Shown: positions 29,901 to 55,640 of the stretch, piece after piece
How positions within the stretch are numbered: the stretch's first letter is position 1
How the letters are laid out: each line of letters starts with the position of its first letter
Position numbers and translations under genes: made by a program
Assembly (NCBI GenBank): GCA_963971285.1
Contig: OZ020261.1
Span: forward strand, 2,790,001 to 2,854,000
Reading direction: 5' to 3'
Source: Astropecten irregularis
Lineage: Eukaryota > Echinodermata > Asteroidea > Paxillosida > Astropectinidae
DNA length: 64,000 nucleotides
The notes under the pieces: model-generated
The model's input: only the letters and a program-made list of their open reading frames with translations
Databases searched by the model: none
Told to the model about the DNA's origin: nothing

Positions 29901-32900
29901 ACGATGATGAGGTGCAACCAACAAGGCATAATAAGGCACAATGATCTAGGCACACTAAGGCACAGTGATAGAGGTACAGCGATTAAGACACAATCAATGA
30001 GGCACAATGAGGCACGCTGATGACGTACAACAATCGAGGCACAAAAAGATACGATGATGCAGTGCTACCAACAAGGCACAATGAGGCACAGTAATGAGGA
30101 AAAACAATTGAGATATATCAAGGCACGATGATGAGTAGCAACCAACAAGGCACAATATGCTGATGCGTACAACAATCGAGGCACAATAAGGCACAGTGAT
30201 GAGGTACAGCGATTAAGACACAATCAATGAGGCACAAAGAGGCACGCTGATGAGGTACAACAGTCGAGACACAACAAGGAACAATGATAAGAAGCAACCA
30301 ACTAGGCACAATGATCTTGGCACACCAAGGCACAGTGATGAGATACAACGATTAAGACACAATGAGGCATAATGAGGCACGCCGATGACGTACAACAATC
30401 GAAACACAACAAGGCATGATGATGAGGTACAAACAACTAGCCACAATAAGGCACAATGATGAGGTACAATGATCTAGGCACACTAGGGCACACTGATGAA
30501 ATACAATGATTAAAACACAATGAGGCACACTGGAGATGTACAACAATTGTGGCATAACAAGGCACGATGATGAGGTGCAACCAACAAGGCACAATGATCT
30601 AGGCACACTAAGGCACAGTGATGAGGTACAGCAATTAAGTCACAATCAATGAGGCACAATGAGGCACGCTGATGACGAACAACTACCGAGGCACAACAAG
30701 GCACGATGATGAGGTGCAACCAACAAGGCACAATTAGGCACAATGATTGAGGCAAACTAAGGCACAGTGATGAGGTACAGCGATTAAGACACAATCACTG
30801 AAGCATAATGCACACTGATGACATTACAACAATTCAGACACAACAAAACACGATGAGGTGCAACCAACAAGGCACAATAAGGCACAATGATGAGGTACAA
30901 TGATAAAGGCACACTAGGGCACAATGATGAGGTACAGCGATTAAGACACAAGCAATGAGGCACAATGAGGCATGGTAATGAGTTACAACAATCGAGACAC
31001 ATCGAGGCACAATGATGAATAGCAACCAACAAGGCACAATAAGGAACAATGATCTAGGCACACAAAGGCACAGTGATGAGGTACAGCGATTAGGACACAA
31101 GCAATGAGGCAAAATAAGGCAAGGTGATGAGGTACAACAATCGAGACACATCAAGGCACGATGATGAGGTACAATGATCTAGGCACACAAAGGCACAGAG
31201 ATGAAACACAACAATTAAAACACAATGAGGCACACTTATGATGTACAACAATTGTGGCATAACAAGGCACGATGATGAGGTGCATCCAACAAGGCATAAT
31301 AAGGCACAAGGATCTAGGCACACTAAGGCACAGTGATAGAGGTACAGCGATTAAGACACAATCAATGAGGCACAATGAGGCACGCTGATGACGTACAACA
31401 ATCGAGGCACAAAAAGATACGATGATGCAGTGCTACCAACAAGGCACAATAAGGCACAATGATCTAGGCACACAAAGGCACAGTGATGAGGTACAGCGAT
31501 TAAGACACAAGCAATGAGGCACAATGAGACACAGTAATGAGGAAAAACAATTGAGACATATCAAGGCACAATGATGAGTAGCAACCAACAAGGCACAATA
31601 AGGCACAATGATCAAGGCAAACTAAGGCACAGTGATGAGGTACAGCGATTAAGACACAATCAATGAAGCATAATGCACACTGATGACATTACAACAATTG
31701 AGACACAACAAAACACGATGAGGTGCAACCAACAAGGCACAATAAGGCACAATCTTGAGGTACAATGATATAGGCACACTAGGGCACAATGATGAGGTAC
31801 AGCGATTAAGACACAAGCAATGAGGCACAATGAGGCACGGTAATGAGTTATAACAATCGAGACACATCGAGGCACAATGATGAGTAGCAACCAACAAGGC
31901 ACAACCACCAATCGAGACACATCAAGGCATGATGATGAGGTACAATGATCTAGGCACACTAAGGCACAGATATGAAACACAACAATTAAAACACAATGAG
32001 GCACACTTATGATGTACAACAATCGTGGCATAACAAGGCATGATGATGAGGTGCAACCAACAAGGCACAATGAGGCACAATGATCTAGGCACACTAAGGC
32101 ACAGTGATGAGGTACAGCGATTAAGACACAAGCAATGAGGCAAATGAGGCACGGTGATGAGGTACAACAATCGAGACACATCAAGGCAGGATGAGGTACA
32201 ATGATCTAGGCACACTAAGGCACAGTGATGAAATACAATGATTAAAACACAATGAGGCACTGATGACGTGCAACTATTGTGGCATAACAAGGCAGGATGA
32301 TGAGGTGCAACCAACAAGGCACAATAAGGCACAATAATCTAAGCACTCTAAGACACAGTGATGAGGTACAGCGATTAAGACAATAATGAGGGATGAGGCA
32401 CGGTGATGAGGTACAACAATCAAGGCGCAACAAGGCACGATGATGAGGTGCAACCAACAAGGCACAATAAGGCACAATGATCTAGGCATACAAAGGCACA
32501 GTGATGAGGTACAGCGATTAAGACACAATCAATGAGGCACAATGAGGAACGCTGATGACGTACAACAATCGAGGCACAACAAAACACGATGATGAGGTGC
32601 AACCAACAAGGCACAACATATAGGCACAATGATCGAGGCACACTAAGGCACATTGAGGAGGTACACCGATTAAGACACAATCAATGAGGAATGAGGCACG
32701 GTGATGAGGTACAACAATCGAGGCACAACAAGATACGATGATGAGGTGCAACGAACAAGGCACAATAAGGCACAATGATCTTGGCACACAAAGACACAGT
32801 GATGAGGTACAGCGATTAAGACATGAGCAATGAGACACAATGAGACACGGTAATGAGGTACAACAATCGAGAAACATCAAGGCACGATGATGAGTAGCAA

Positions 32901-34719
32901 CCAACAAGGCACAATAAGGAACAATGATCTAGGCACACAAAGGCACAGTGATGAGGTACAGCGATTAAGACACAAGCAATGAGGCAAATGAGGCACGGTG
33001 ATGAGGTACAACAATCGAGACACATCAAGGCATGATGATGAGGTACAATGATCTAGGCACACTAAGGCACAGTGATGAAATACAACAATTAAAACACAAT
33101 GAGGCACACTTATGTCGTACAACAATTGTGGCATAACAAGGCACGATGATGAGGTGCAACCAATAAGGCACAATGATCTAGGCACACTAAGGCACAGTGA
33201 TGAGGTACATCGATAAAGACACAATCAATGAGGCACAATGAGGCACGCTGATGCGTACAACAATCGAGGCACAATAAGGCACAGTGATGAGGTACAGCGA
33301 TTAAGACACAATCGATGAGGCACAAAGAGGCACGCTGATGAGGTACAACAGTCGAGACACAACAAGGAACAATGATAAGAAGCAACCAACTAGGCACAAT
33401 GATCTTGGCACACCAAGGCACAGTGATGAGATACAACGATTAAGACACAATGAGGCATAATGAGGCACGCTGATGACGGACAACAATCGAAACACAACAA
33501 GGCATGATGATGAGGTACAAACAACTAGCCACAATAAGGCACAATGATGAGGTACAATGATCTAGGCACACTAGGGCACACTGATGAAATACAATGATTA
33601 AAACACAATGAGGCACACTGGAGATGTACAACAATTGTGGCTTAACAAGGCACGATGATGAGGTACAGCGATTAGGACACAAGCAATGAGGCAAAATAAG
33701 GCAAGGTGATGAGGTACAACAATTGAGACACATCAAGGCACGATGATGAGGTACAATGATCTAGGCACACTAAGGCACAGAGATGAAACACAACAATTAA
33801 AACACAATGAGGCACACTAATGATGTACAACAATCGTGGCATAACAAGGCACGATGATGAGGTGCAACCAACAAGGCATAATAAGGCACAATGATCTAGG
33901 CACACTAAGGCACAGTGATAGAGGTACAGCGATTAAGACACAATCAATGAGGCACAATGAGGCACGCTGATGACGTACAACAATCGAGGCACAAAAAGAT
34001 ACGATGATGCGGTGCTACCAACAAGGCACAATAAGGCACAATGATCTGGGCACACAAAGGCACAGTGATGAGGTACAGCGATTAAGACACAAGCAATGAG
34101 GAACAATGAGGCACAGTAATGAGGAAAAACAATTGAGATATATCAAGGCACGATGATGAGTAGCAACCAACAAGGCACAATATGCTGATGCGTACAACAA
34201 TCGAGGCACAATAAGGCACAGTGATGAGGTACAGCGATTAAGACACAATCAATGAGGCACAAAGAGGCACGCTGATGAGGTACAACAGTCGAGACACAAC
34301 AAGGAACAATGATAAGAAGCAACCAACTAGGCACAATGATCTTGGCACACCAAGGCACAGTGATGAGATACAACGATTAAGACACAATGAGGCATAATGA
34401 GGCACGCCGATGACGTACAACAATCGAAACACAACAAGGCATGATGATGAGGTACAAACAACTAGCCACAATAAGGCACAATGATGAGGTACAATGATCT
34501 AGGCACACTAGGGCACACTGATGAAATACAATGATTAAAACACAATGAGGCACACTGGAGATGTACAACAATTGTGGCATAACAAGGCACGATGATGAGG
34601 TGCAACCAACAAGGCACAATGATCTAGGCACACTAAGGCACAGTGATGAGGTACAGCGATTAAGTCACAATCAATGAGGCACAATGAGGCACGCTGATGA
34701 CGAACAACTACCGAGGCAC
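20972..34719. repeat. Tandem pair of a 6,874-bp array block
   Basis: Copy 1 is 20972-27845 and copy 2 is 27846-34719. Identity at this offset starts at 20972/27846 (T against C just before) and ends at 27866/34740 (A against G just after). The exchange therefore happened in a 21-bp stretch, 27846-27866. Compared markers, including rare variants, are identical between copies. Confidence 0.87.
26770..28921. repeat. Tandem pair of a 1,076-bp array block
   Basis: Copies are 26770-27845 and 27846-28921. The flanking matches start and stop at the same 21-bp stretch (27846-27866) that bounds the 6,874-bp duplication, so one exchange junction explains both offsets. A paralogous pair lies at 43816-45967. 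Confidence 0.85.
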
Positions 34720-35882
34720 AACAAGGCACGATGATGAGGTGCAACCAACAAGGCACAATTAGGCACAATGATCGAGGCAAACTAAGGCACAGTGATGAGG
34801 TACAGCGATTAAGACACAAGCAATGAGGCAAATGAGGCACGGTGATGAGGTACAACAATCGAGACACATCAAGGCAAGATGATGAGGTACAATGATCTAG
34901 GCACACTAAGGCACAGTGATGAAATACAACAATTAAAACACAATGAGGCACACTTATGTCGTACAACAATCGTGGCATAACAAGGCACGATGATGAGGTG
35001 CAACTAATAAGGCACAATGATCTAGGCACACTAAGGCACAGTGATGAGGTACAGCGATTAAGACACAATCAATGAGGCACAATGAGGCACGCTGATGCGT
35101 ACAACAATCGAGGCACAATAAGGCACAGTGATGAGGTACAGCGATTAAGACCCAATCAATGAGGCACAAAGAGGAACGCTGATGAGGTACAACAGTCGAG
35201 ACACAACAAGGAACAATGATAAGAAGCAACCAACTAGGCACAATGATCTTGGCACACCAAGGCACAGTGATGAGATACAACGATTAAGACACAATGAGGC
35301 ATAATGAGGCACGCTGATGACGTACAACAATCGAAACACAACAAGACATGATGATGAATTACAAACAACTAGCCACAATAAGGCACAATGATGAGGTACA
35401 ATGATCTAGGCACACTAGGGCACAATGATGAAATACAATGATTAAAACACAATGAGGCACACTGGAGATGTACAACAATTGTGGCATAACAAGGCACGAT
35501 GATGAGGTGCAACCAACAAGGCACAATGATCTAGGCACACTAAGGCACAGTGATGAGGTACAGCGATTAAGTCACAATCAACGAGGCACAATGATGAGGT
35601 ACAATGATCTAGGCACACTAAGGCACAGAGATGAAACACAACAATTAAAACACAATGAGGCACACTAATGATGTACAACAATCGTGGCATAACAAGGCAC
35701 GATGATGAGGTGCAACCAACAAGGCATAATAAGGCACAATGATCTAGGCACACTAAGGCACAGTGATAGAGGTACAGCGATTAAGACACAATCAATGAGG
35801 CACAATGAGGCACGCTGATGACGTACAACAATCGAGGCACAAAAAGATACGATGATGCAGTGCTACCAACAAGGCACAATGA

Positions 35883-35887
35883 GGCAC
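35883..35887. repeat. Target-site duplication, left copy (GGCAC)
   Basis: GGCAC occurs directly before the left transposon end and again at 41899-41903 directly after the right end. The unoccupied paralog at 51156-51160 has it once. The repeat family itself is full of GGCAC, but the offset arithmetic supports a real duplication. Confidence 0.85.
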
Positions 35888-36520
35888 TATGGTGGCTTTA
35901 AAGGGACATCGCAAACAAATATTGACGTCAATATTGACGCCAATATTCACGACTTTTACCCCAAGTCGCAAATATTGACGCCAATATTGACGCCAATATT
36001 GACGACTTGGCCTCAAGTCGCAAATATTGACGTCAATATTGACGCCAATATTCACGACTTGGCCTCAAGTCGTAAATATTGACGCCAATATTGACGCCAA
36101 TATTCACGACTTAGCCTCCAAGTCGTAAATATTGACGCCAATATTGACGCCAATATTAACGACTTGGGCCCCAAGTCGTAAATATTGACGCCAATATTGA
36201 CGCCAATATTCACGACTTTTACCCCAAGTCGTAAATATTGACGTCAATATTGACGCCAATATTTACGACATGGCCTAAAGTCGCAAATATTGACGACAAT
36301 ATTGACGCCAATATTCACGCTTGGGCCCCAAGTCGCAAATATTGACGACAATATTGACGCCAATATTCACGACTTGGGCTCCAATTAGTCGCAAATATTT
36401 ACGCCAATTTTGACGCCAAAATTCACGACTTGGACCCCAAAGCGTAAATATTGACGCCAATATTGACGCCAATATTCAAGACTTGGGCCCCAAGTCGCAA
36501 ACCCACTCAGGCGTGAATTT
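35888..36520 (+). repeat. Left terminal inverted repeat of the foldback element
   Basis: It is about 633 bp. After a unique lead of about 45 bp come roughly 11 tandem monomers of about 53 bp. Each has two or three AATATTGACGCC 12-mers, then AATATTCAC and a short palindrome of the GACTTGGGGCCCCAAGTC type. The spacer within the palindrome varies (TTTACCCC, GGCCTC, GGGCCCC, AGCCTCC). It ends in a non-repetitive CACTCAGGCGTGAATTT that is mirrored at the inner end of the right repeat. Confidence 0.9.
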
Positions 36521-37179
36521 GTGGATTTTTTTAGTAACCTAGGTAGCTCGGTATGTTATGAAATAGTCTGGTGCACCCGTCTCGCTCGTGGTTGCGTGCA
36601 CTGATTGATTTTTGTCACTAACTGCGGTGTTGTACCAGCTCTATGCATGCTATGCTGTACGCATGCCACTCCGCCTCGCGAAAATGGAGACTGAAAACCG
36701 GGTAAATATAATTGTATTTCTTATTAGGCCTACTTTATTTATGTTTGTCATTAAAGTGACCCGAAATGAGTTGTTCCACTTGCGGTTGTCTTCCTGGGGA
36801 TTCATATTACTAAATTAGGCCCCCAATCCTCGATGTACTACCGGTTTTCGAGGGTGTGGTAGGCCTACGTAAGCATTAATTATTCCAAGCAAGACAAAAA
36901 GTCACATACAGAAGTTAACTGTTGATGACATGTAGTTTCGGCTTGCGGGGCCGGGGAGCACGTACGTACATAAAACAAATCAACTGATTGTATGATACAG
37001 GCCTGGGAGTCGCTACCAATGATAGGAGGTCAATCCTCAAAAACTTGATACCTCGACAACAGGTACACTGACGATTATAATCATATTCGTAAAAATAGCC
37101 CCTCACCTAACTGAACTCATTCCTCACCTTAATTATTATGAAAGCCAGCCCAGTATCATTACTTCCATTCCACCTGTCA

Positions 37180-37195
37180 CCCCCCCCCCCCCCCC
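37180..37195 (+). repeat. Poly-C tract (16 C)
   Basis: This is an uninterrupted run of 16 C inside the foldback interior, a likely slippage and sequencing-error hotspot. It has no evident role. Confidence 0.95.
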
Positions 37196-37584
37196 AACAA
37201 AGATGCCCCTAACAAATTCACCCTCAAACCAGCTGGTTAGGAGGCAACTTTGTTGGGGGCGACTTCTTGTTGGGGCCGAGCTTGCTGGGGGGAGAGCGGG
37301 GGACGACATGACCAGCCCCCAACTTGAATAAATTAAACCCATCAATATGTTTTAGGTTGTTCCATTTTGATCAGTGCAATTAGGTACAGTACTCGTAAGT
37401 CATAGTTATGTTTACAATGCTGCTGTTGCTATCTTAGAGATGTACATTGTAAGCACTTTACTTGTATCAATGCTGAAATGTTATTATTTGCAATCCTACA
37501 GTTGTTTACTGTTTATATAATTTAATGATGTAAAATCATTGACACAATTTTAAGATCGTTGTTTAAAAGGCAAATACATTTTAA

Positions 37585-37740
37585 ATGTCACTTAGTGTTG
37601 AGTTTGAGTCATACTCGTCAAGTCAGAGTCTCTTGCCTAACATAACTCAAGACTTAAGTCGAGTGCAAGTCAACAAAATTGCAACTTCAGGCCGAGTCCT
37701 GGACTCGAGTGACAGTTCCCATAATGAACTAAGTGAAGTA
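37585..37740 (+). repeat. Degenerate AAGTC/GAGTC simple-sequence tract
   Basis: GAGTC, AAGTC and CTCAAG words recur irregularly here (GAGTTTGAGTC, GTCAAGTCAGAGTC, GACTTAAGTCGAGTGCAAGTC). It resembles a decayed form of the clean AAGTC repeat at 61440-61525. A 65-codon open frame over it is best explained by the five-base periodic words. Confidence 0.55.
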
Positions 37741-37847
37741 TCTGTAGTTTTTACCTCCTATACCCCTCATTTAAAGTACTAACTACTATTCCCCTTTTCA
37801 ATGGCTTGTGTTCAGCATGTTTACTAAAGATTATGTTTTTCTTAAAG

Positions 37848-37953
37848 GTGACTTCCTCCATGATTCCTTCTATGTCTGATGATGAGTTGAAATCATTGGG
37901 AGTATCGAAGATTGGTGATCGCTATGAATTAAAAAGACAGTGCCAAGCTGTAG
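37848..37953 (+). CDS. Candidate exon, C-terminal half of a SAM-like domain (inside the transposon)
   Basis: The 106-bp segment is preceded by TTTTTCTTAAAG (acceptor) and followed by GTAG|GTGAGT, a consensus donor. It is open in one frame for 35 codons plus one base. It contains SDDELKSLGVSKIGDRYELK, matching the helix 4 to helix 5 pattern of SAM domains (acidic-x-L-x-x-LG-V/I-x-x-x-GDR-x-x-L-x-x). The first half of a SAM domain is not seen. SAM domains usually mediate protein oligomerisation. The exon could belong to a gene captured by the foldback element or to an element-encoded accessory protein. A phase-compatible downstream exon exists at 40806. Transcription is not shown. Confidence 0.5.
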
Positions 37954-38561
37954 GTGAGTTTTCATCAAGGAAGAGGGATATTTGACAATACACGGGTGTA
38001 CACTTCGAAAAATGCGCATGCGTGATAGCGCCTCGTTTTGAAGTTGTGATCAAAATCTAAGATGGCCACCAATGTGTAAACCCGTGTTTAGACCCCTTGC
38101 ATAACCCTTGCATAATGTGCAGCACTGCTGGTATGCTGATGTCATGTTAACTGTTTTACACCAGGCAGCTGTGGTTTAGTGTTCTGCTTGTTTTTGCCTC
38201 AGTGTGGGCGTTGTTTGAGTGCAGTGGCATACTACAGGTGGTTTGTTCAAGGTTTCCTGATATGGACAACCATTTGTCAAATGCTTGCTAAAATATTTTT
38301 ATTTTGGAATAGAACTTAACTACATTATGTCTTATTATTAATGTCAATTTCAATTTCAGGCCCTGTATGAAAGCTGGGTTCACATATGAATGTCAAATTA
38401 CAAAAATGATAGGCTATGGGTCAATTTGTTACCTGAATTGGAATATTGTAAGCTTTGTCCTTCCACACTCCATCTACATCAATATTTGCAATCCATTATA
38501 TGTTAACAGCTTTTCGAGACCCACTTTTCTTTTCTTTTCTTTTCTTTTTCTCCACTCATAG

Positions 38562-38611
38562 CACCGACTTCTCATTCAGTGGCTGATTATGACACGAGGC
38601 ATGTGCAGTGA
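38562..38611 (+). CDS. Possible alternative terminal exon after the SAM-like exon
   Basis: A strong acceptor precedes it: a long CTTTTCTTTTC pyrimidine tract, then CTCATAG. Joined to the one-base overhang of the exon at 37848-37953 it would read APTSHSVADYDTRHVQ and stop at 38609-38611. An AATAAA lies at 39346-39351. The splice site is better than the coding evidence, since the encoded tail has no recognisable domain. It may be a non-coding or alternative 3' exon. Confidence 0.25.
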
Positions 38612-38861
38612 TGAGGATAGTCCACCAACGAATCGTGGGAGTACAAGAACAAATTACGCTTAGAATTTGACGTGCTGTGCTGCATTAGATTTTTGTCCTG
38701 TATGTAGTAATATACCAGCAATGACATTCATTTTCTGTCATTTACGTAAAATACGCACACCATGTGCATGAAAGTACATGTATTCGCAAACTGTAGTGTA
38801 CATGTACCTTAACATGCTCAATAACAAGTAATGGTTTGGGTTTACATAACATGTATGTTTG

Positions 38862-39097
38862 AAAGAAGGTAGGTTTGCGGTGACACATGTAATCTTTTCT
38901 GTGAGAGTGTGTGGTTCTGAGAAGAACCGATGGTATTATTTTGAAACTGTGTGCTCTGTTTATCCTCAGTCACTCTCCTGAGGACAAACAGAGCACACTG
39001 TTCGGAATGTCGAGATAACTTCCACCGGTTCAAGTTCTCAGAAACAAACACTCTCGCAGAAGAGATTACATGGTGTCACCGCAAACCTACCTTCTTT
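38862..39097. mobile_element. Palindromic MITE-like element, 236 bp, nested in the foldback interior
   Basis: The ends are inverted copies starting AAAGAAGGTAGGTTTGCGG. They continue with a few mismatches for about 60 bp (GTGACAC, ATGTAATCT, TTCTG, GAGAGTG, TTCTGAGAA), and a second inner inverted repeat (GTGTGCTCTGTTT) surrounds a short central loop. The whole segment would fold into one long hairpin. No clear target duplication was found, so the superfamily is unknown. Coding frames across it are incidental. Confidence 0.75.
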
Positions 39098-40123
39098 TAG
39101 TACTTCCACCATGCATAGCTTCAAGTCTTATTTATGTATGTTTCATCAATATACATGTGTACTTAAATGGGTTTGTGTATCTGCAGCTTTTTTGTGATAC
39201 TTCTCCAGATAAAACTTTCAACTATGCCTCCATAATAAGTTGCAACCCATCACTTCTTAGCAGTCTTCAGAATGGGATTGTTTTTAATACTGCAAAACAT
39301 GCCTGTCTCAAAGTGTTGTTATTGGGATGCTTGTAAAAAAACTCAAATAAATACAGTACTTTCAAAGTTTTTGAAAAGCTGCAGATTTATCAGGCTTTTC
39401 TGATTTATCAAAATTGAACATTTATTTATTTGATGTGTGTATCGAAATATTGTATTTCAGTTCACTGAGTATATGGAACTTTAAATGATGCCTTTATAAT
39501 TTAAGTTATGCCACCATCACTCATTGGCAGATAGCAGTTTTACAGCTTACTGACAAGTATGGCTTTGGTGCATATTATTTTGAAGCTACATAAAATGGTA
39601 CGGTTTAAAACTAATATAAATTTTTGAATGAAAATGTTAAAAGACTTCACAGTTTCATCACAGGGAATGATTACACCCTTCAGTTCTGTGCACATATAAT
39701 GCACATCTACCTTGGAAGTTTAGTTTGAACATGTTTGTATTATTGTACACTGAAACATACACAACACGAATTATGCCATCATACTCAAAAAGGTTTTATT
39801 TTTACTGTATATTGTTGTCATGTACTTATTAATGGGACAATAATTATTTAGCAGAAATCAGTTCACAATACTTGGTTTGATTGTTAAGTAAGGGGGATTA
39901 TTTTGACATCTTAAACCCAATTTTATGAAAGTGGGATGTATGCACAGCATGTACGTACATATTTTCTACCATTAATTATGTCAACGCTGAACATGTTTAT
40001 TTACTATGCTTGAGTACATGTCATGTACATGTATATAGAACTTGTGTTTCAATCACATAATATGCTCGGTCACCCCTTACTTAGCAGGTTGAAAAATTCT
40101 GTCATATTAGTGAACACAGGGGG
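39098..40123. other. Foldback interior, no recognised gene
   Basis: This is AT-rich sequence with an AATAAA at 39346-39351 and several TACATGTA-type words. An 88-codon plus-strand frame (39070-39336) starts inside the MITE-like arm and has no recognisable domain. Nothing else is supported. Confidence 0.5.
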
Positions 40124-40520
40124 GTCAGACGAGTCGACCGGTGGGACAACTCGACTTGAGATAGGTCGACCGGTGAGACAGGTCGACCGGTGAGACATGT
40201 CGACCGTTGAGACAGGTCGACCGGTGAGACACAGGTCGACCGTTGAGACAGGTCGACCGGTGAGATAGGCCGAGACAGGTCGACCGGTGAGAAATATACC
40301 TGTCTCACCGGTCGACCTGTCTCGGCCTATCTCAACGGTCGACCTGTCTCAACGGTCGACCTGTCTCACCGGTCGACCTGTCTCACCGGTCGACCTGTCT
40401 CAACGGTCGACCTATCTCAACGGTCGACCTGTCTCACCGGTCGACCTGTCTCAACGGTCGACCTGTCTCACCGGTCGACCTGTCTCAAGTCGAGTTGTCC
40501 CACCGGTCGACTTGTCTGAC
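40124..40520. repeat. Second foldback palindrome built from GGTCGACCGGTGAGACA repeats
   Basis: This is a 397-bp inverted repeat. The left arm begins GTCAGACGAGTCGACCGGTG and the right arm ends in the inverse, CACCGGTCGACTTGTCTGAC. Each arm consists of tandem 17-bp units of the GGTCGACCGGTGAGACA type, alternating with a CGTTGAGACA variant, and the arms meet near 40298. The arms have unequal unit numbers (about 8 left and 11 right). ACACAGG occurs on both sides (40114-40120 and 40526-40532), but not directly at the arm ends. It is a small nested foldback element or an expanded minisatellite hairpin. Confidence 0.85.
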
Positions 40521-40805
40521 ATTCTACACAGGTATTAATCATAAGACAAATATCTAGGGCATCTAAGTAGGACAGTTACCTTCATTGCCACTGTAAAGTA
40601 TAGGCTTGATAGTTTGTTAATAGTGGTATTTTTAATTAAGGTATAATGTTAGTGTACTCAGTTTCTCAAAGAAAAAATAAATACATGCACATTTTATGTG
40701 TTACATGATGTGAAATAAAGATTTTGGTGACTATTCTATGCTTGAATTTTTTGTGTCTATATAATTATTATGAACAAATATAATTATAAAAAAAAAATCT
40801 TTTAG
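40521..40805. other. Foldback interior, AT-rich intron-like stretch
   Basis: There is no gene here. It contains AATAAA-type words (one at 40714-40719) and ends in an A-rich run followed by TCTTTTAG, a possible acceptor for the exon at 40806. Confidence 0.4.
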
Positions 40806-40972
40806 ATTGCCTTGCCACACTAATTCAGAGACAAAGTGCTACACTTTCAGAAATATTATCAAGAATAGAAGTCAGTGTTTTCCAACATCTTCATCGATCT
40901 TTATTCAATAATAACTCTTCAAATCATGTTAATTATCAAAACTGGGGAGTGGGGAGGCAATCATTTAAATAA
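40806..40972 (+). CDS. Candidate 3' exon, helical tail of the SAM-like gene
   Basis: After ATCTTTTAG an open frame of 55 codons runs to TAA at 40970-40972. With the one-base overhang from the exon ending at 37953 it starts with Asp and continues CLATLIQRQSATLSEILSRI, an apparently amphipathic helix, followed by an Asn-rich, low-conservation tail. There is no ATG at its start, which fits an internal or terminal exon. Phase agreement is a one-in-three coincidence, and no polyadenylation signal follows before the right terminal repeat. Treat it as a hypothesis. Confidence 0.28.
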
Positions 40973-41427
40973 TCAGATTTTTTAATCACAGCCAAAAGAC
41001 TACTAAAGTATTGGGAAGTGGGGTTTTGAGAAGGAAACCCGTACGTTCCTTCTCGATGACTCATGAATGTACATAACTGATACGCTATGAAATTGGTGGC
41101 GAAATTCACGGGGGTGAAGTGACTTGGGGCGAAATATTCATAGAGTGCACGCGAAAAAACCTAACTCGCCCCATATGTCCGTGTTTTCGCCCTCAACCTT
41201 TTTTGCCGAATTTCTCCCAAACGTGGCACTTTTGCACAAGGGGGAACAAGCAAATAATTATATGATCAGCATGTCCTAATAGTCAACTGGTGCAAAATTC
41301 AGCCCCTCCCTCGATGGTGGCCACGAAAATCATTTTCTAGAAGACTTTTTGCACTTCGTCCCATAAGATCGGTGGGTCTGGGTGCCAGACGGTGTAGGAA
41401 ACGGACGCCCCAAGTTGCTGTAAAAAA
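40973..41427. other. Foldback interior, 3' part
   Basis: No gene is recognised. Motifs such as GGCGAAATTCACGGGGGTGA and GACTTGGGGCG loosely resemble the terminal-repeat vocabulary. The stretch ends in a poly-A run just before the right terminal repeat. Confidence 0.45.
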
Positions 41428-41898
41428 AATTCACGCCTGAGTGGGTTTACGACTTGGGCTTAGTCGTGAATATTGGCGTCAATATTGGCGTAAATATTCG
41501 CGACTTGGGGCCCAAGTCGTGAATATTGGCGTCAATATTGGCGTCAATATTTACGACTTGGAGGCTAAGTCGTGAATATTGTCGTCAATTTTGGCGTCAA
41601 TATTTACGACTTGGGGTAAAAGTCGTGAATATTGGCGTCAATATTGGCGTAAATATTTGCGACTTTGGGGCCCAAGTCGTGAACATTGACGTCAATATTG
41701 GCGTAAATATTTACGACTTGAGGCCAAGTCGTGAATATTGGCGTCAATATTGACGTCAATATTTGCGACTTGATGCCAAGTCGTAAATTTTGGCGTCAAT
41801 ATTGGCGTCAATATTTGCGACTTGGGGTAAAAGTCGTGAATATTGGCGTCAATATTGGCGTCAATATTTGTTTGCGATGTCCCTTTAAAGCCACCATA
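41428..41898 (-). repeat. Right terminal inverted repeat of the foldback element
   Basis: It is about 471 bp and is the inverted counterpart of 35888-36520, with about 8 monomers instead of 11. The outer lead and the inner boundary word match the left repeat, so the length difference comes from monomer copy number alone. Frames reading NIGVNI or WRQYWRQY through both repeats are by-products of the 12-bp period. Confidence 0.9.
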
Positions 41899-41903
41899 GG
41901 CAC
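41899..41903. repeat. Target-site duplication, right copy (GGCAC)
   Basis: This is the partner of 35883-35887. The array resumes immediately with AGTAATGAGG, the same continuation seen after 51160. Confidence 0.85.
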
Positions 41904-43815
41904 AGTAATGAGGAAAAACAATTGAGATATATCAAGGCACGATGATGAGTAGCAACCAACAAGGCACAATATGCTGATGCGTACAACAATCGAGGCACAA
42001 TAAGGCACAGTGATGAGGTACAGCGATTAAGACACAATCAATGAGGCACAAAGAGGCACGCTGATGAGGTACAACAGTCGAGACACAACAAGGAACAATG
42101 ATAAGAAGCAACCAACTAGGCACAATGATCTTGGCACACCAAGGCACAGTGATGAGATACAACGATTAAGACACAATGAGGCATAATGAGGCACGCTGAT
42201 GACGGACAACAATCGAAACACAACAAGGCATGATGATGAGGTACAAACAACTAGCCACAATAAGGCACAATGATGAGGTACAATGATCTAGGCACACTAG
42301 GGCACACTGATGAAATACAATGATTAAAACACAATGAGGCACACTGGAGATGTACAACAATTGTGGCTTAACAAGGCACGATGATGAGGTACAGCGATTA
42401 GGACACAAGCAATGAGGCAAAATAAGGCAAGGTGATGAGGTACAACAATTGAGACACATCAAGGCACGATGATGAGGTACAATGATCTAGGCACACTAAG
42501 GCACAGAGATGAAACACAACAATTAAAACACAATGAGGCACACTAATGATGTACAACAATCGTGATATAACAAGGCACGATGATGAGGTGCAACCAACAA
42601 GGCATAATAAGGCACAATGATCTAGGCACACTAAGGCACAGTGATAGAGGTACAGCGATTAAGACACAATCAATGAGGCACAATGAGGCACGCTGATGAC
42701 GTACAACAATCGAGGCACAAAAAGATAGGATGATGCGGTGCTACCAACAAGGCACAATAAGGCACAATGATCTGGGCACACAAAGGCACAGTGATGAGGT
42801 ACAGCGATTAAGACACAAGCAATGAGGAACAATGAGGCACAGTAATGAGGAAAAACAATTGAGATATATCAAGGCACGATGATGAGTAGCAACCAACAAG
42901 GCACAATATGCTGATGCGTACAACAATCGAGGCACAATAAGGCACAGTGATGAGGTACAGCGATTAAGACACAATCAATGAGGCACAAAGAGGCACGCTG
43001 ATGAGGTACAACAGTCGAGACACAACAAGGAACAATGATAAGAAGCAACCAACTAGGCACAATGATCTTGGCACACCAAGGCACAGTGATGAGATACAAC
43101 GATTAAGACACAATGAGGCATAATGAGGCACGCCGATGACGTACAACAATCGAAACACAACAAGGCATGATGATGAGGTACAAACAACTAGCCACAATAA
43201 GGCACAATGATGAGGTACAATGATCTAGGCACACTAGGGCACACTGATGAAATACAATGATTAAAACACAATGAGGCACACTGGAGATGTACAACAATTG
43301 TGGCTTAACAAGGCACGATGATGAGGTGCAACCAATAAGGCACAATGATCTAGGCACACTAAGGCACAGTGATGAGGTACATCGATAAAGACACAATCAA
43401 TGAGGCACAATGAGGCACGCTGATGCGTACAACAATCGAGGCACAATAAGGCACAGTGATGAGGTACAGCGATTAAGACACAATCGATGAGGCACAAAGA
43501 GGCACGCTGATGAGGTACAACAGTCGAGACACAACAAGGAACAATGATAAGAAGCAACCAACTAGGCACAATGATCTTGGCACACCAAGGCACAGTGATG
43601 AGATACAACGATTAAGACACAATGAGGCATAATGAGGCACGCTGATGACGGACAACAATCGAAACACAACAAGGCATGATGATGAGGTACAAACAACTAG
43701 CCACAATAAGGCACAATGATGAGGTACAATGATCTAGGCACACTAGGGCACACTGATGAAATACAATGATTAAAACACAATGAGGCACACTGGAGATGTA
43801 CAACAATTGTGGCTT

Positions 43816-45967
43816 AACAAGGCACGATGATGAGGTACAGCGATTAGGACACAAGCAATGAGGCAAAATAAGGCAAGGTGATGAGGTACAACAATTGAGA
43901 CACATCAAGGCACGATGATGAGGTACAATGATCTAGGCACACTAAGGCACAGAGATGAAACACAACAATTAAAACACAATGAGGCACACTAATGATGTAC
44001 AACAATCGTGGCATAACAAGGCACGATGATGAGGTGCAACCAACAAGGCATAATAAGGCACAATGATCTAGGCACACTAAGGCACAGTGATAGAGGTACA
44101 GCGATTAAGACACAATCAATGAGGCACAATGAGGCACGCTGATGACGTACAACAATCGAGGCACAAAAAGATACGATGATGCGGTGCTACCAACAAGGCA
44201 CAATAAGGCACAATGATCTGGGCACACAAAGGCACAGTGATGAGGTACAGCGATTAAGACACAAGCAATGAGGAACAATGAGGCACAGTAATGAGGAAAA
44301 ACAATTGAGATATATCAAGGCACGATGATGAGTAGCAACCAACAAGGCACAATATGCTGATGCGTACAACAATCGAGGCACAATAAGGCACAGTGATGAG
44401 GTACAGCGATTAAGACACAATCAATGAGGCACAAAGAGGCACGCTGATGAGGTACAACAGTCGAGACACAACAAGGAACAATGATAAGAAGCAACCAACT
44501 AGGCACAATGATCTTGGCACACCAAGGCACAGTGATGAGATACAACGATTAAGACACAATGAGGCATAATGAGGCACGCCGATGACGTACAACAATCGAA
44601 ACACAACAAGGCATGATGATGAGGTACAAACAACTAGCCACAATAAGGCACAATGATGAGGTACAATGATCTAGGCACACTAGGGCACACTGATGAAATA
44701 CAATGATTAAAACACAATGAGGCACACTGGAGATGTACAACAATTGTGGCATAACAAGGCACGATGATGAGGTGCAACCAACAAGGCACAATGATCTAGG
44801 CACACTAAGGCACAGTGATGAGGTACAGCGATTAAGTCACAATCAATGAGGCACAATGAGGCACGCTGATGACGAACAACTACCGAGGCACAACAAGGCA
44901 CGATGATGAGGTACAGCGATTAGGACACAAGCAATGAGGCAAAATAAGGCAAGGTGATGAGGTACAACAATTGAGACACATCAAGGCACGATGATGAGGT
45001 ACAATGATCTAGGCACACTAAGGCACAGAGATGAAACACAACAATTAAAACACAATGAGGCACACTAATGATGTACAACAATCGTGGCATAACAAGGCAC
45101 GATGATGAGGTGCAACCAACAAGGCATAATAAGGCACAATGATCTAGGCACACTAAGGCACAGTGATAGAGGTACAGCGATTAAGACACAATCAATGAGG
45201 CACAATGAGGCACGCTGATGACGTACAACAATCGAGGCACAAAAAGATACGATGATGCGGTGCTACCAACAAGGCACAATAAGGCACAATGATCTGGGCA
45301 CACAAAGGCACAGTGATGAGGTACAGCGATTAAGACACAAGCAATGAGGAACAATGAGGCACAGTAATGAGGAAAAACAATTGAGATATATCAAGGCACG
45401 ATGATGAGTAGCAACCAACAAGGCACAATATGCTGATGCGTACAACAATCGAGGCACAATAAGGCACAGTGATGAGGTACAGCGATTAAGACACAATCAA
45501 TGAGGCACAAAGAGGCACGCTGATGAGGTACAACAGTCGAGACACAACAAGGAACAATGATAAGAAGCAACCAACTAGGCACAATGATCTTGGCACACCA
45601 AGGCACAGTGATGAGATACAACGATTAAGACACAATGAGGCATAATGAGGCACGCCGATGACGTACAACAATCGAAACACAACAAGGCATGATGATGAGG
45701 TACAAACAACTAGCCACAATAAGGCACAATGATGAGGTACAATGATCTAGGCACACTAGGGCACACTGATGAAATACAATGATTAAAACACAATGAGGCA
45801 CACTGGAGATGTACAACAATTGTGGCATAACAAGGCACGATGATGAGGTGCAACCAACAAGGCACAATGATCTAGGCACACTAAGGCACAGTGATGAGGT
45901 ACAGCAATTAAGTCACAATCAATGAGGCACAATGAGGCACGCTGATGACGAACAACTACCGAGGCAC
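43816..45967. repeat. Second occurrence of the 1,076-bp tandem pair
   Basis: Copies are 43816-44891 and 44892-45967, matching 26770-28921 at an offset of 17,046 bp. The shared junction shows that the 1,076-bp duplication predates the larger duplication that placed it on both sides of the transposon. Confidence 0.8.
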
Positions 45968-48900
45968 AACAAGGCACGATGATGAGGTGCAACCAACAAG
46001 GCACAATTAGGCACAATGATTGAGGCAAACTAAGGCACAGTGATGAGGTACAGCGATTAAGACACAATCACTGAAGCATAATGCACACTGATGACATTAC
46101 AACAATTCAGACACAACAAAACACGATGAGGTGCAACCAACAAGGCACAATAAGGCACAATGATGAGGTACAATGATAAAGGCACACTAGGGCACAATGA
46201 TGAGGTACAGCGATTAAGACACAAGCAATGAGGCACAATGAGGCATGGTAATGAGTTACAACAATCGAGACACATCGAGGCACAATGATGAATAGCAACC
46301 AACAAGGCACAATAAGGAACAATGATCTAGGCACACAAAGGCACAGTGATGAGGTACAGCGATTAGGACACAAGCAATGAGGCAAAATAAGGCAAGGTGA
46401 TGAGGTACAACAATCGAGACACATCAAGGCACGATGATGAGGTACAATGATCTAGGCACACAAAGGCACAGAGATGAAACACAACAATTAAAACACAATG
46501 AGGCACACTTATGATGTACAACAATTGTGGCATAACAAGGCACGATGATGAGGTGCATCCAACAAGGCATAATAAGGCACAAGGATCTAGGCACACTAAG
46601 GCACAGTGATAGAGGTACAGCGATTAAGACACAATCAATGAGGCACAATGAGGCACGCTGATGACGTACAACAATCGAGGCACAAAAAGATACGATGATG
46701 CAGTGCTACCAACAAGGCACAATAAGGCACAATGATCTAGGCACACAAAGGCACAGTGATGAGGTACAGCGATTAAGACACAAGCAATGAGGCACAATGA
46801 GACACAGTAATGAGGAAAAACAATTGAGACATATCAAGGCACAATGATGAGTAGCAACCAACAAGGCACAATAAGGCACAATGATCAAGGCAAACTAAGG
46901 CACAGTGATGAGGTACAGCGATTAAGACACAATCAATGAAGCATAATGCACACTGATGACATTACAACAATTGAGACACAACAAAACACGATGAGGTGCA
47001 ACCAACAAGGCACAATAAGGCACAATCTTGAGGTACAATGATATAGGCACACTAGGGCACAATGATGAGGTACAGCGATTAAGACACAAGCAATGAGGCA
47101 CAATGAGGCACGGTAATGAGTTATAACAATCGAGACACATCGAGGCACAATGATGAGTAGCAACCAACAAGGCACAACCACCAATCGAGACACATCAAGG
47201 CATGATGATGAGGTACAATGATCTAGGCACACTAAGGCACAGATATGAAACACAACAATTAAAACACAATGAGGCACACTTATGATGTACAACAATCGTG
47301 GCATAACAAGGCATGATGATGAGGTGCAACCAACAAGGCACAATGAGGCACAATGATCTAGGCACACTAAGGCACAGTGATGAGGTACAGCGATTAAGAC
47401 ACAAGCAATGAGGCAAATGAGGCACGGTGATGAGGTACAACAATCGAGACACATCAAGGCAGGATGAGGTACAATGATCTAGGCACACTAAGGCACAGTG
47501 ATGAAATACAATGATTAAAACACAATGAGGCACTGATGACGTGCAACTATTGTGGCATAACAAGGCAGGATGATGAGGTGCAACCAACAAGGCACAATAA
47601 GGCACAATAATCTAAGCACTCTAAGACACAGTGATGAGGTACAGCGATTAAGACAATAATGAGGGATGAGGCACGGTGATGAGGTACAACAATCAAGGCG
47701 CAACAAGGCACGATGATGAGGTGCAACCAACAAGGCACAATAAGGCACAATGATCTAGGCATACAAAGGCACAGTGATGAGGTACAGCGATTAAGACACA
47801 ATCAATGAGGCACAATGAGGAACGCTGATGACGTACAACAATCGAGGCACAACAAAACACGATGATGAGGTGCAACCAACAAGGCACAACATATAGGCAC
47901 AATGATCGAGGCACACTAAGGCACATTGAGGAGGTACACCGATTAAGACACAATCAATGAGGAATGAGGCACGGTGATGAGGTACAACAATCGAGGCACA
48001 ACAAGATACGATGATGAGGTGCAACGAACAAGGCACAATAAGGCACAATGATCTTGGCACACAAAGACACAGTGATGAGGTACAGCGATTAAGACATGAG
48101 CAATGAGACACAATGAGACACGGTAATGAGGTACAACAATCGAGAAACATCAAGGCACGATGATGAGTAGCAACCAACAAGGCACAATAAGGAACAATGA
48201 TCTAGGCACACAAAGGCACAGTGATGAGGTACAGCGATTAAGACACAAGCAATGAGGCAAATGAGGCACGGTGATGAGGTACAACAATCGAGACACATCA
48301 AGGCATGATGATGAGGTACAATGATCTAGGCACACTAAGGCACAGTGATGAAATACAACAATTAAAACACAATGAGGCACACTTATGTCGTACAACAATT
48401 GTGGCATAACAAGGCACGATGATGAGGTGCAACCAATAAGGCACAATGATCTAGGCACACTAAGGCACAGTGATGAGGTACATCGATAAAGACACAATCA
48501 ATGAGGCACAATGAGGCACGCTGATGCGTACAACAATCGAGGCACAATAAGGCACAGTGATGAGGTACAGCGATTAAGACACAATCGATGAGGCACAAAG
48601 AGGCACGCTGATGAGGTACAACAGTCGAGACACAACAAGGAACAATGATAAGAAGCAACCAACTAGGCACAATGATCTTGGCACACCAAGGCACAGTGAT
48701 GAGATACAACGATTAAGACACAATGAGGCATAATGAGGCACGCTGATGACGGACAACAATCGAAACACAACAAGGCATGATGATGAGGTACAAACAACTA
48801 GCCACAATAAGGCACAATGATGAGGTACAATGATCTAGGCACACTAGGGCACACTGATGAAATACAATGATTAAAACACAATGAGGCACACTGGAGATGT

Positions 48901-51900
48901 ACAACAATTGTGGCTTAACAAGGCACGATGATGAGGTACAGCGATTAGGACACAAGCAATGAGGCAAAATAAGGCAAGGTGATGAGGTACAACAATTGAG
49001 ACACATCAAGGCACGATGATGAGGTACAATGATCTAGGCACACTAAGGCACAGAGATGAAACACAACAATTAAAACACAATGAGGCACACTAATGATGTA
49101 CAACAATCGTGGCATAACAAGGCACGATGATGAGGTGCAACCAACAAGGCATAATAAGGCACAATGATCTAGGCACACTAAGGCACAGTGATAGAGGTAC
49201 AGCGATTAAGACACAATCAATGAGGCACAATGAGGCACGCTGATGACGTACAACAATCGAGGCACAAAAAGATACGATGATGCGGTGCTACCAACAAGGC
49301 ACAATAAGGCACAATGATCTGGGCACACAAAGGCACAGTGATGAGGTACAGCGATTAAGACACAAGCAATGAGGAACAATGAGGCACAGTAATGAGGAAA
49401 AACAATTGAGATATATCAAGGCACGATGATGAGTAGCAACCAACAAGGCACAATATGCTGATGCGTACAACAATCGAGGCACAATAAGGCACAGTGATGA
49501 GGTACAGCGATTAAGACACAATCAATGAGGCACAAAGAGGCACGCTGATGAGGTACAACAGTCGAGACACAACAAGGAACAATGATAAGAAGCAACCAAC
49601 TAGGCACAATGATCTTGGCACACCAAGGCACAGTGATGAGATACAACGATTAAGACACAATGAGGCATAATGAGGCACGCCGATGACGTACAACAATCGA
49701 AACACAACAAGGCATGATGATGAGGTACAAACAACTAGCCACAATAAGGCACAATGATGAGGTACAATGATCTAGGCACACTAGGGCACACTGATGAAAT
49801 ACAATGATTAAAACACAATGAGGCACACTGGAGATGTACAACAATTGTGGCATAACAAGGCACGATGATGAGGTGCAACCAACAAGGCACAATGATCTAG
49901 GCACACTAAGGCACAGTGATGAGGTACAGCGATTAAGTCACAATCAATGAGGCACAATGAGGCACGCTGATGACGAACAACTACCGAGGCACAACAAGGC
50001 ACGATGATGAGGTGCAACCAACAAGGCACAATTAGGCACAATGATCGAGGCAAACTAAGGCACAGTGATGAGGTACAGCGATTAAGACACAAGCAATGAG
50101 GCAAATGAGGCACGGTGATGAGGTACAACAATCGAGACACATCAAGGCAAGATGATGAGGTACAATGATCTAGGCACACTAAGGCACAGTGATGAAATAC
50201 AACAATTAAAACACAATGAGGCACACTTATGTCGTACAACAATCGTGGCATAACAAGGCACGATGATGAGGTGCAACTAATAAGGCACAATGATCTAGGC
50301 ACACTAAGGCACAGTGATGAGGTACAGCGATTAAGACACAATCAATGAGGCACAATGAGGCACGCTGATGCGTACAACAATCGAGGCACAATAAGGCACA
50401 GTGATGAGGTACAGCGATTAAGACCCAATCAATGAGGCACAAAGAGGAACGCTGATGAGGTACAACAGTCGAGACACAACAAGGAACAATGATAAGAAGC
50501 AACCAACTAGGCACAATGATCTTGGCACACCAAGGCACAGTGATGAGATACAACGATTAAGACACAATGAGGCATAATGAGGCACGCTGATGACGTACAA
50601 CAATCGAAACACAACAAGACATGATGATGAATTACAAACAACTAGCCACAATAAGGCACAATGATGAGGTACAATGATCTAGGCACACTAGGGCACAATG
50701 ATGAAATACAATGATTAAAACACAATGAGGCACACTGGAGATGTACAACAATTGTGGCATAACAAGGCACGATGATGAGGTGCAACCAACAAGGCACAAT
50801 GATCTAGGCACACTAAGGCACAGTGATGAGGTACAGCGATTAAGTCACAATCAACGAGGCACAATGATGAGGTACAATGATCTAGGCACACTAAGGCACA
50901 GAGATGAAACACAACAATTAAAACACAATGAGGCACACTAATGATGTACAACAATCGTGGCATAACAAGGCACGATGATGAGGTGCAACCAACAAGGCAT
51001 AATAAGGCACAATGATCTAGGCACACTAAGGCACAGTGATAGAGGTACAGCGATTAAGACACAATCAATGAGGCACAATGAGGCACGCTGATGACGTACA
51101 ACAATCGAGGCACAAAAAGATACGATGATGCAGTGCTACCAACAAGGCACAATGAGGCACAGTAATGAGGAAAAACAATTGAGATATATCAAGGCACGAT
51201 GATGAGTAGCAACCAACAAGGCACAATATGCTGATGCGTACAACAATCGAGGCACAATAAGGCACAGTGATGAGGTACAGCGATTAAGACACAATCAATG
51301 AGGCACAAAGAGGCACGCTGATGAGGTACAACAGTCGAGACACAACAAGGAACAATGATAAGAAGCAACCAACTAGGCACAATGATCTTGGCACACCAAG
51401 GCACAGTGATGAGATACAACGATTAAGACACAATGAGGCATAATGAGGCACGCTGATGACGGACAACAATCGAAACACAACAAGGCATGATGATGAGGTA
51501 CAAACAACTAGCCACAATAAGGCACAATGATGAGGTACAATGATCTAGGCACACTAGGGCACACTGATGAAATACAATGATTAAAACACAATGAGGCACA
51601 CTGGAGATGTACAACAATTGTGGCTTAACAAGGCACGATGATGAGGTACAGCGATTAGGACACAAGCAATGAGGCAAAATAAGGCAAGGTGATGAGGTAC
51701 AACAATTGAGACACATCAAGGCACGATGATGAGGTACAATGATCTAGGCACACTAAGGCACAGAGATGAAACACAACAATTAAAACACAATGAGGCACAC
51801 TAATGATGTACAACAATCGTGATATAACAAGGCACGATGATGAGGTGCAACCAACAAGGCATAATAAGGCACAATGATCTAGGCACACTAAGGCACAGTG

Positions 51901-52560
51901 ATAGAGGTACAGCGATTAAGACACAATCAATGAGGCACAATGAGGCACGCTGATGACGTACAACAATCGAGGCACAAAAAGATAGGATGATGCGGTGCTA
52001 CCAACAAGGCACAATAAGGCACAATGATCTGGGCACACAAAGGCACAGTGATGAGGTACAGCGATTAAGACACAAGCAATGAGGAACAATGAGGCACAGT
52101 AATGAGGAAAAACAATTGAGATATATCAAGGCACGATGATGAGTAGCAACCAACAAGGCACAATATGCTGATGCGTACAACAATCGAGGCACAATAAGGC
52201 ACAGTGATGAGGTACAGCGATTAAGACACAATCAATGAGGCACAAAGAGGCACGCTGATGAGGTACAACAGTCGAGACACAACAAGGAACAATGATAAGA
52301 AGCAACCAACTAGGCACAATGATCTTGGCACACCAAGGCACAGTGATGAGATACAACGATTAAGACACAATGAGGCATAATGAGGCACGCCGATGACGTA
52401 CAACAATCGAAACACAACAAGGCATGATGATGAGGTACAAACAACTAGCCACAATAAGGCACAATGATGAGGTACAATGATCTAGGCACACTAGGGCACA
52501 CTGATGAAATACAATGATTAAAACACAATGAGGCACACTGGAGATGTACAACAATTGTGG
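45400..52560. repeat. Paralogous block spanning the unoccupied transposon site
   Basis: Roughly 45.4-51.16 kb copies 30.1-35.89 kb (offset 15,273). 51.156-52.56 kb copies 41.90-43.30 kb (offset 9,257). Together they reconstruct the array around the foldback insertion without the element. Start and end are approximate because the flanking repeats are themselves similar. Shared private variants such as CGTGATATAAC (42563, 51820) and GATAGGATGATG link the two. Confidence 0.85.
51156..51160. other. Unoccupied foldback target site (single GGCAC)
   Basis: The sequence AATGA-GGCAC-AGTAATGAGG is uninterrupted here. The paralog at 35883-41903 carries the 6011-bp element between two copies of GGCAC. 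The same uninterrupted sequence also occurs in other array copies, for example near 980, 11124, 23209 and 30084. Confidence 0.88.
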
Positions 52561-52618
52561 CTTAACAAGGCACGATGATGAGGTGCAACCAACAAGGCAC
52601 AATGATCTAGGCACACTA

Positions 52619-52767
52619 AGGCACAGTGATGAGGTACAGCGATTAAGTCACAATCAATGAGGCACAATGAGGCACGCTGATGACGAACAACTACCGAGGC
52701 ACAACAAGGCACGATGATGAGGTGCAACCAACAAGGCACAATAAGGCACAATGATCGAGGCAAACTA
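52619..52767 (+). repeat. Representative 149-bp higher-order unit
   Basis: This is one full unit, from AGGCACAG at 52619 to just before the next AGGCACAG at 52768, exactly 149 bp. Module order is 27 bp (GATGAGGTACAGCGATT type), 14 bp (AGTCACAATCAATG), 10 bp, 27 bp (AGGCACGCTGATGACG type), 10 bp, 27 bp (AGGCACGATGATGAGG type), 10 bp, 14 bp (AGGCACAATGATCG) and 10 bp. These lengths sum to 149. Other units vary by module loss or gain, so local periods differ. Confidence 0.85.
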
Positions 52768-52799
52768 AGGCACAGTGATGAGGTACAGCGATTAAGACA

Positions 52800-55640
52800 C
52801 AATCAATGAAGCATAATGCACACTGATGACATTACAACAATTCAGACACAACAAAACACGATGAGGTGCAACCAACAAGGCACAATAAGGCACAATGATG
52901 AGGTACAATGATATAGGCACACTAGGGCACAATGATGAGGTACAGCGATTAAGACACAAGCAATGAGGCACAATGAGGCATGGTAATGAGTTACAACAAT
53001 CGAGACACATCGAGGCACAATGAAGAGTAGCAACCAACAAGGCACAATAAGGAACAATGATCTAGGCACACAAAGGCACAGTGATGAGGTACAGCGATTA
53101 GGACACAAGCAATGAGGCAAAATAAGGCAAGGTGATGAGGTACAACAATCGAGACACATCAAGGCACGATGATGAGGTACAATGATCTAGGCACACAAAG
53201 GCACAGAGATGAAACACAACAATTAAAACACAATGAGGCACACTTATGATGTACAACAATTGTGGCATAACAAGGCACGATGATGAGGTGCAACCAACAA
53301 GGCATAATAAGGCACAAGGATCTAGGCACACTAAGGCACAGTGATAGAGGTACAGCAATTAAGACACAATCAATGAGGCACAATGAGGCACGCTGATGAC
53401 GTACAACAATCGAGGCACAAAAAGATACGATGATGCAGTGCTACCAACAAGGCACAATAAGGCACAATGATCTAGGCACACAAAGGCACAGTGATGAGGT
53501 ACAGCGATTAAGACACAAGCAATGAGGCACAATGAGGCACAGTAATGAGGAAAAACAATTGAGACATATCAAGGCACAATGATGAGTAGCAACCAACAAG
53601 GCACAATAAGGCACAATGATCGAGGCAAACTAAGGCACAGTGATGAGGTACAGCGATTAAGACACAATCAATGAAGCATAATGCACACTGATGACATTAC
53701 AACAATTGAGACACAACAAAACACGATGAGGTGCAACCAACAAGGCACAATAAGGCACAATCTTGAGGTACAATGATATAGGCACAATAGGGCACAATGA
53801 TGAGGTACAGCGATTAAGACACAAGCAATGAGGCACAATGAGGCACGGTAAAGAGTTATAACAATCGAGACACATCGAGGCACAATGATGAGTAGCAACC
53901 AACAAGGCACGACCACCAATCGAGACACATCAAGGCATGATGATGAGGTACAATGATCTAAGCACACTAAGGCACAGAGATGAAACACAACAATTAAAAC
54001 ACAATGAGGCACACTTATGATGTACAACAATCGTGGCATAACAAGGCACGATGATGAGGTGCAACCAACAAGGCACAATGAGGCACAATGATCTAGGCAC
54101 ACTAAGGCACAGTGATGAGGTACAGCGATTAAGACACAAGCAATGAGGCAAATGAGGCACGGTGATGAGGTACAACAATCGAGACACATCAAGGCAGGAT
54201 GAGGTACAATGATCTAGGCACACTAAGGCACAGTGATGAAATACAATGATTAAAACACAATGAGGCACTGATGACGTGCAACTATCGTGGCATAACAAGG
54301 CACGATGATGAGGTGCAACCAACAAGGCACAATAAGGCATAATAATCTAGGCACACTAAGACAAAGTGATGAGGTACAGCGATTAAGACAATAATGAGGG
54401 ATGAGGCACGGTGATGAGGTACAACAATCAAGGCGCAACAAGGCACGATGATGAGGTGCAACCAACAAGGCACAATAAGGCACAATGATCTAGGCATACA
54501 AAGGCACAGTGATGAGGTACAGCGATTAAGACACAATCAATGAGGCACAATGAGGAACGCTGATGACGTACAACAATCGAGGCACAACAAAACACGATGA
54601 TGAGGTGCAACCAACAAGGCACAACATATAGGCACAATGATCGAGGCACACTAAGGCACATTGAGGAGGTACACCGATTACGACACAATCAATGAGGAAT
54701 GAGGCACGGTGATGAGGTACAACAATCGAGGCACAACAAGATACGATGATGAGGTGCAACGAACAAGGCACAATAAGGCACAATGATCTAGGCACACAAA
54801 GACACAGTGATGAGGTACAGCGATTAAGACATGAGCAATGAGACACAATGAGGCACGGTAATGAGGTACAACAATCGAGAAACATCAAGGCACGATGATG
54901 AGTAGCAACCAACAAGGCACAATAAGGAACAATGATCTAGGCACACAAAGGCACAGTGATGAGGTACAGCGATTAAGACACAAGCAATGAGGCAAATGAG
55001 GCACGGTGATGAGGTACAACAATCGAGACACATCAAGGCATGATGATGAGGTACAATGATCTAGGCACACTAAGGCACAGTGATGAAATACAACAATTAA
55101 AACACAATGAGGCACACTTATGTCGTACAACAATTGTGGCATAACAAGGCACGATGATGAGGTGCAACCAATAAGGCACAATGATCTAGGCACACTAAGG
55201 CACAGTGATGAGGTACATTGATAAAGACACAATCAATGAGGCACAATGAGGCACGCTGATGCGTACAACAATCGAGGCACAATAAGGCACAGTGATGAGG
55301 TACAGCGATTAAGACACAATCAATGAGGCACAAAGAGGCACGCTGATGAGGTACAACAGTCGAGACACAACAAGGAACAATGATAAGAAGCAACCAACTA
55401 GGCACAATGATCTTGGCACACCAAGGCACAGTGATGAGATACAACGATTAAGACACAATGAGGCATAATGAGGCACGCTGATGACGGACAACAATCGAAA
55501 CACAACAAGGCATGATGATGAGGTACAAACAACTAGCCACAATAAGGCACAATGATGAGGTACAATGATCTAGGCACACTAGGGCACACTGATGAAATAC
55601 AATGTTTAAAACACAATGAGGCACACTGGAGATGTACAAC
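52800..55640. repeat. Diverged copy of the 46.07-48.9 kb block (offset 6,735)
   Basis: Order and rare markers match 46.07-48.9 kb, for example AACATATAGG at about 54622. Substitutions are more frequent than between the interior blocks. It marks the transition to the diverged edge of the array. Confidence 0.75.

Follow-up and report, generated by a model that had tools for sequence, protein, structure and literature searches.

Foldback of Drosophila and Tm1 of nematodes are foldback-type transposons. Among the other elements with this architecture, Tetris was placed in the Mutator superfamily and has target duplications of 8–10 bp, and that report suggests that the foldback structure arose in different lineages, mostly within Mutator (PMC4079207); Galileo, a member of the P superfamily (PMC3573991), is an exception to this Mutator majority. 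For the IS3EU superfamily, published work describes TA..TA termini for all complete families, usually together with 6-bp duplications (PMC10045372), and, in rust fungi, TAYGG..CCRTA ends, terminal inverted repeats (TIRs) of more than 30 bp and 6-bp duplications, alongside hAT families with duplications of that same length (PMC12730594). In addition, a survey of oyster satellites contains a table in which two satellites are labelled IS3EU (PMC8268682). A foldback-type IS3EU element was not seen in the part of the literature naming this superfamily that we surveyed.

Here, we describe a foldback-like element and its empty site within one satellite array of the starfish Astropecten irregularis (genome of 475.7 Mb on 168 contigs). 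The window, meaning the whole stretch of 64,000 nucleotides that was analysed, spans positions 2790001–2854000 of contig C25. Most of it, up to approximately position 61,030, is filled with satellite units of the type GGCACAATGATGAGG, as judged from the 150 of 483 unit matches listed. The array (1–35887 and 41904–61030) contains nested and very recent large duplications; a T-rich stretch devoid of array units at 59400–59525 is perhaps a second interruption. As originally predicted, a 6,011-bp element with inverted ends (35888–41898) lies between two copies of GGCAC, which were found on the forward strand at 35883–35887 and 41899–41903. The prediction that a paralogous block (45351–52638, forward strand) reads through the same spot uninterrupted, at 51156–51160 and thus approximately 9 kb from the element, was likewise confirmed by the flank matches. 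Indeed, the forward-strand block left of the insertion (30078–35887) had no mismatch over 5,810 bp when compared to 45351–51160, and the one to its right (41904–43381, forward strand) differed from 51161–52638 by one mismatch in 1,478 bp, located at position 43336. With the insert left out, filled and empty blocks therefore differ by one mismatch in 7,288 bases, an identity that is far above chance level. The arithmetic of the offsets also holds, given that 15,273 minus 9,257 equals 6,016, that is, the 6,011-bp element plus 5 bp. We took the empty site as the ancestral state because all 16 of the 16 other occurrences within the window of a 34-bp string starting with the site's GGCAC were uninterrupted. 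Taken together, these data support the insertion of a foldback-like transposon into this array, where a near-identical block shows the empty site.

The element starts with TATGG and ends with CCATA, and carries a 25-bp tip at its left (35888–35912, forward strand) and, inverted, at its right end (41874–41898, reverse strand), so that TATGGTGGCTTTAAAGGGACATCGC is present at both ends in inverted orientation. Behind these tips lie arms built from a 53-bp tandem repeat, with 11.1 copies (586 bp) in the left arm (35916–36501, forward strand) and 8.1 inverted copies (425 bp) in the right arm (41446–41870, reverse strand). The inverted ends (35887–36121 versus 41665–41899) are 96% complementary over 235 nt. 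Such long and internally repetitive inverted ends represent a foldback architecture, whose hallmark, long inverted repeats made from tandem subrepeats, is seen here as the 53-bp unit in both arms. The middle region contains a palindrome of 17-bp repeats (40124–40520) with two 106-nt arms that are 94% complementary, and the surrounding sequence (40110–40530), folded as single-stranded DNA, gave a predicted hairpin that was 38 standard deviations better than those of 100 shuffled sequences.

No long reading frame was found in the element: the longest stop-to-stop frame was 105 aa inside the window copy and 201 aa across 20 other copies of the family. The element seems to lack a working gene. Among the four frames of the window copy that were tested against Pfam, one contained a remnant of a SAM-domain reading frame (37848–37949, forward strand; SAM_2, E-value 1.9e-4, 22 bits for a cut-off of 20.5), which is common to other copies of the family. 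The SAM-like frame of one such copy, L026 (126 aa), had 47 matches in the genome, four of them exact (L026 counted), and the best 14 lay in copies of the element family; against solved structures it gave two weak matches, both to SAMHD1 chains (E-values 0.31 and 0.32).

Searching the genome for the 25-bp tip with at most three mismatches gave 271 matches (139 forward and 132 reverse), while the reversed pattern, used as control, gave none. From the tip matches listed (the first 100 of the 271 places), we retrieved 20 copies of 4.2–6.6 kb and later also shorter copies and single ends (L002–L008 are the same places as L009–L015 and were counted once). The TATGG..CCATA ends are carried by the window copy and most of the retrieved copies, with a changed second end in a few short ones. 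The family also includes short, MITE-like copies that have the same 25-bp tips as the window element without its middle region; those of 131–840 bp mostly showed 6-bp duplications when scored. Two places on contig C17, approximately 163 kb apart, carry copies (L097 and L098) with 701 identical bases and the same 6-bp flank, and this pair perhaps arose when a genomic segment containing the element was duplicated.

Target duplications could be scored for 44 insertions including the window copy, which comprised 30 of 31 examined insertions (L018, which lacks a right tip, was left out), two elements of a second subfamily (see below) and 12 of 42 ends, the other 30 ends having no partner within 731 bp. 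Exact 6-bp duplications were found in 33 cases (32 independent ones, since L091 and L092 stem from a single insertion), 6-bp duplications with one mismatch in five and none in another five, while a 5-bp duplication was found in the window copy alone. The original prediction had described a 5-bp duplication for the window copy and had named consistent duplications of another length in other copies as a refuting outcome; the comparison gave this outcome for the length, as 38 of the 43 other scored insertions (33 exact, five with one mismatch) carry 6 bp and none of the 43 carries 5 bp. The family duplicates 6 bp, and the window insertion is an exception. Across 26 exact duplications, the target preference was symmetric, with G or C at either end (81% and 92% at the two outer positions, at most 35% inside) and mostly A or T within. 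The window site fits this preference poorly, whether read as AGGCAC or as GGCACA. Its 5-bp duplication may reflect a variant stagger or, alternatively, a 6-bp duplication (AGGCAC or GGCACA) that was shortened when one A disappeared from one of the junctions. A further suggestion, namely a 3-bp GCA duplication with CTATGG/CCATAG ends, had to be abandoned because the base preceding TATGG is not fixed but differs among the other copies.

ProtoRAG transposons have CACTATG ends and 5-bp duplications. The left junction CACTATGG prompted a ProtoRAG-like reading, which we rejected: the other copies have CAC outside the element and a 6-bp duplication.

The unpaired ends revealed that the same tip is combined with different arms. 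Eight of the 30 have arms of the type found in the window copy, whereas the remaining 22 carry a different tandem unit (approximately 42 bp, by eye) behind a tip that is identical for 26 bp. These 22 ends, together with L051 plus L058 and L053 plus L059, form the second subfamily. The two of its elements that were followed to their far end measured 3,911 and 4,777 bp, and both had right tips with two mismatches and exact 6-bp duplications. A pattern for a third tip (first 20 bases exact), which is blind to partners with a changed tip, gave two matches, both with aberrant ends and one of them being the short copy L029. Because the two subfamilies share their tip but differ in their arms, we infer that the transposase recognizes the 26-bp tip and leaves the arms free to differ. 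This could make the elements a modular foldback family within IS3EU, with at least two kinds of tandem arms behind one identical 26-bp transposase-recognition tip, a proposal that we put forward tentatively and hold with slightly less than even confidence. If true, the tip alone would suffice for mobilization, foldback arms would have arisen independently within IS3EU, and one member of the family would have entered a rapidly duplicating satellite, where it left a 5-bp duplication of atypical length.

Profile searches of the genome with the IS481 and IS3 models did not reveal a transposase associated with these tips. For IS481, none of the 69 scored matches exceeded the family cut-off; 54 lay in frames longer than 900 aa and 15 in shorter ones. 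The IS3 model behaved similarly, with 76 scored matches, none over the cut-off, 52 in frames above 900 aa and 24 in shorter frames. Matches in frames of more than 900 aa are what would be expected of the pol genes of LTR elements, and the three shorter-frame matches that were read by eye were all of the LTR-type pol as well; an IS3EU gene may be among the remaining shorter-frame matches. Likewise, no transposase was recognized by eye in ten of the unpaired ends read 3 kb inward, two of them further.

Considering these findings, we regard it as likely that the element, with its foldback-like arms, is a non-autonomous DNA transposon that was moved in trans by a cut-and-paste mechanism. Most likely it belongs to the IS3EU superfamily and reached its present spot after the two array blocks had split. 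According to this scenario, a transposase supplied in trans would recognize the shared 26-bp tip and cut the target with a 6-bp stagger, after which the gaps would be filled; at the window site, the stagger might have been 5 bp, or one junction base might have been lost later. The element would most likely have arrived after the split of the two near-identical blocks and would have carried its private substitutions over from an earlier site. The 5-bp duplication of the window copy, which departs from its family, counts against this explanation, as do the poor fit of AGGCAC and GGCACA to the target preference and the failure of the searches to reveal a transposase with these tips.

The timing of the insertion deserves particular consideration, as array turnover had been predicted to date the transposition. 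In an alignment of 21 copies, 17 private substitutions were counted for the window copy (over 4,684 columns), compared to 10 (4,501 columns) and 22 (4,479 columns) for its nearest relatives L009 and L010, and from 1 to 151 across the whole set, although some of these might be shared, given that the alignment omits at least four partial or nested copies (on contigs C1, C14, C15 and C20). If element and array evolved at the same rate and the 17 substitutions had arisen in place, approximately 53 mismatches between the blocks would be expected (47 when two CpG changes are disregarded), and only one was observed. For this reason, the lineage of the element looks older than the split of the blocks, unless the array was homogenized: either the element had already diverged when cut-and-paste transposition placed it in a young block, or an older insertion persisted while the array around it was homogenized. 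The latter would alter the date only, making the insertion as old as the divergence of the sister copies, with the blocks being equalized later by gene conversion or unequal exchange from empty copies, in which case block identity would be uninformative on the time of insertion. Besides the expected mismatches, the three-way comparison fits such a history, with 20 private differences in the window copy versus 19 and 32 in L009 and L010, as does the strong turnover of the array, which is apparent because large repeats at offsets of 10,144 (9,404 bp) and 6,874 (6,895 bp) are mismatch-free, in addition to the one at 9,257 (7,288 bp without the insert, one mismatch). Nevertheless, homogenization would need to equalize 5.8 kb to the left and 1.5 kb to the right up to the very junctions while keeping the insert, whereas an element moved by cut and paste would bring its own substitutions and render homogenization unnecessary. 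We therefore favour cut-and-paste arrival, which needs no extra event, and judge an older insertion in a homogenized array to be rather unlikely. Thus, the original dating claim stands only in a weaker form, namely that the two block sequences had probably split before the element arrived here, and 17 private substitutions against one block mismatch do not force a date: the identity of the array may bound the arrival at the window spot and does not date the element itself.

Array repeats of 7–9 kb that are identical or nearly so would also be compatible with an assembly artefact, in which the insertion or the additional array blocks stem from a haplotype switch or a false duplication; with intact tips and a target duplication at this site, as in 38 other insertions genome-wide, we consider this highly improbable. 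As to the superfamily, the element could belong elsewhere (a Mutator-type foldback, hAT6 or an undescribed group) and resemble IS3EU at its ends only. The outcome of the profile searches is compatible with such an origin, as is the existence of hAT families with 6-bp duplications described in the rust-fungus study (PMC12730594). By contrast, the TATGG..CCATA ends, which begin and finish with TA, fit the TAYGG..CCRTA form published there exactly; the 235-nt inverted arms exceed 30 bp, and the family has 6-bp duplications, though the window copy itself has 5 bp. A Mutator-type foldback is disfavoured by duplication length, since neither the 6 bp of the family nor the 5 bp of the window copy corresponds to the 8–10 bp given for Tetris. 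We therefore think it unlikely that the element belongs to another superfamily. As the transposase was not found, the assignment to IS3EU rests on the ends, and judging from these sequences the family most likely belongs to this superfamily.

The locus offers a clean pair of filled and empty sites within a young satellite block, and illustrates that very different ages can be read for one and the same insertion, depending on whether the identity of the satellite blocks or the divergence of the element is considered. Moreover, the uncoupling of tip and tandem arms in this family helps to tell the requirements of a transposase apart from features that merely accumulate.

With respect to known systems, the family appears to fall into an already known transposon group. 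By architecture, the window element can be likened to Tetris and Galileo, which also have long and internally repetitive inverted repeats; the middle part of Tetris is likewise described as having no apparent coding capacity, while its duplications of 8–10 bp differ from the 6 bp of the family studied here (PMC4079207). Compared to IS3EU, the window element differs by its arms of 586 and 425 bp, which consist of 53-bp tandem repeats, and by its transposase, which was not found; yet the TAYGG..CCRTA ends, the 6-bp duplication and the TIRs of more than 30 bp that are published for IS3EU (with GingerRoot) are all present in its family.
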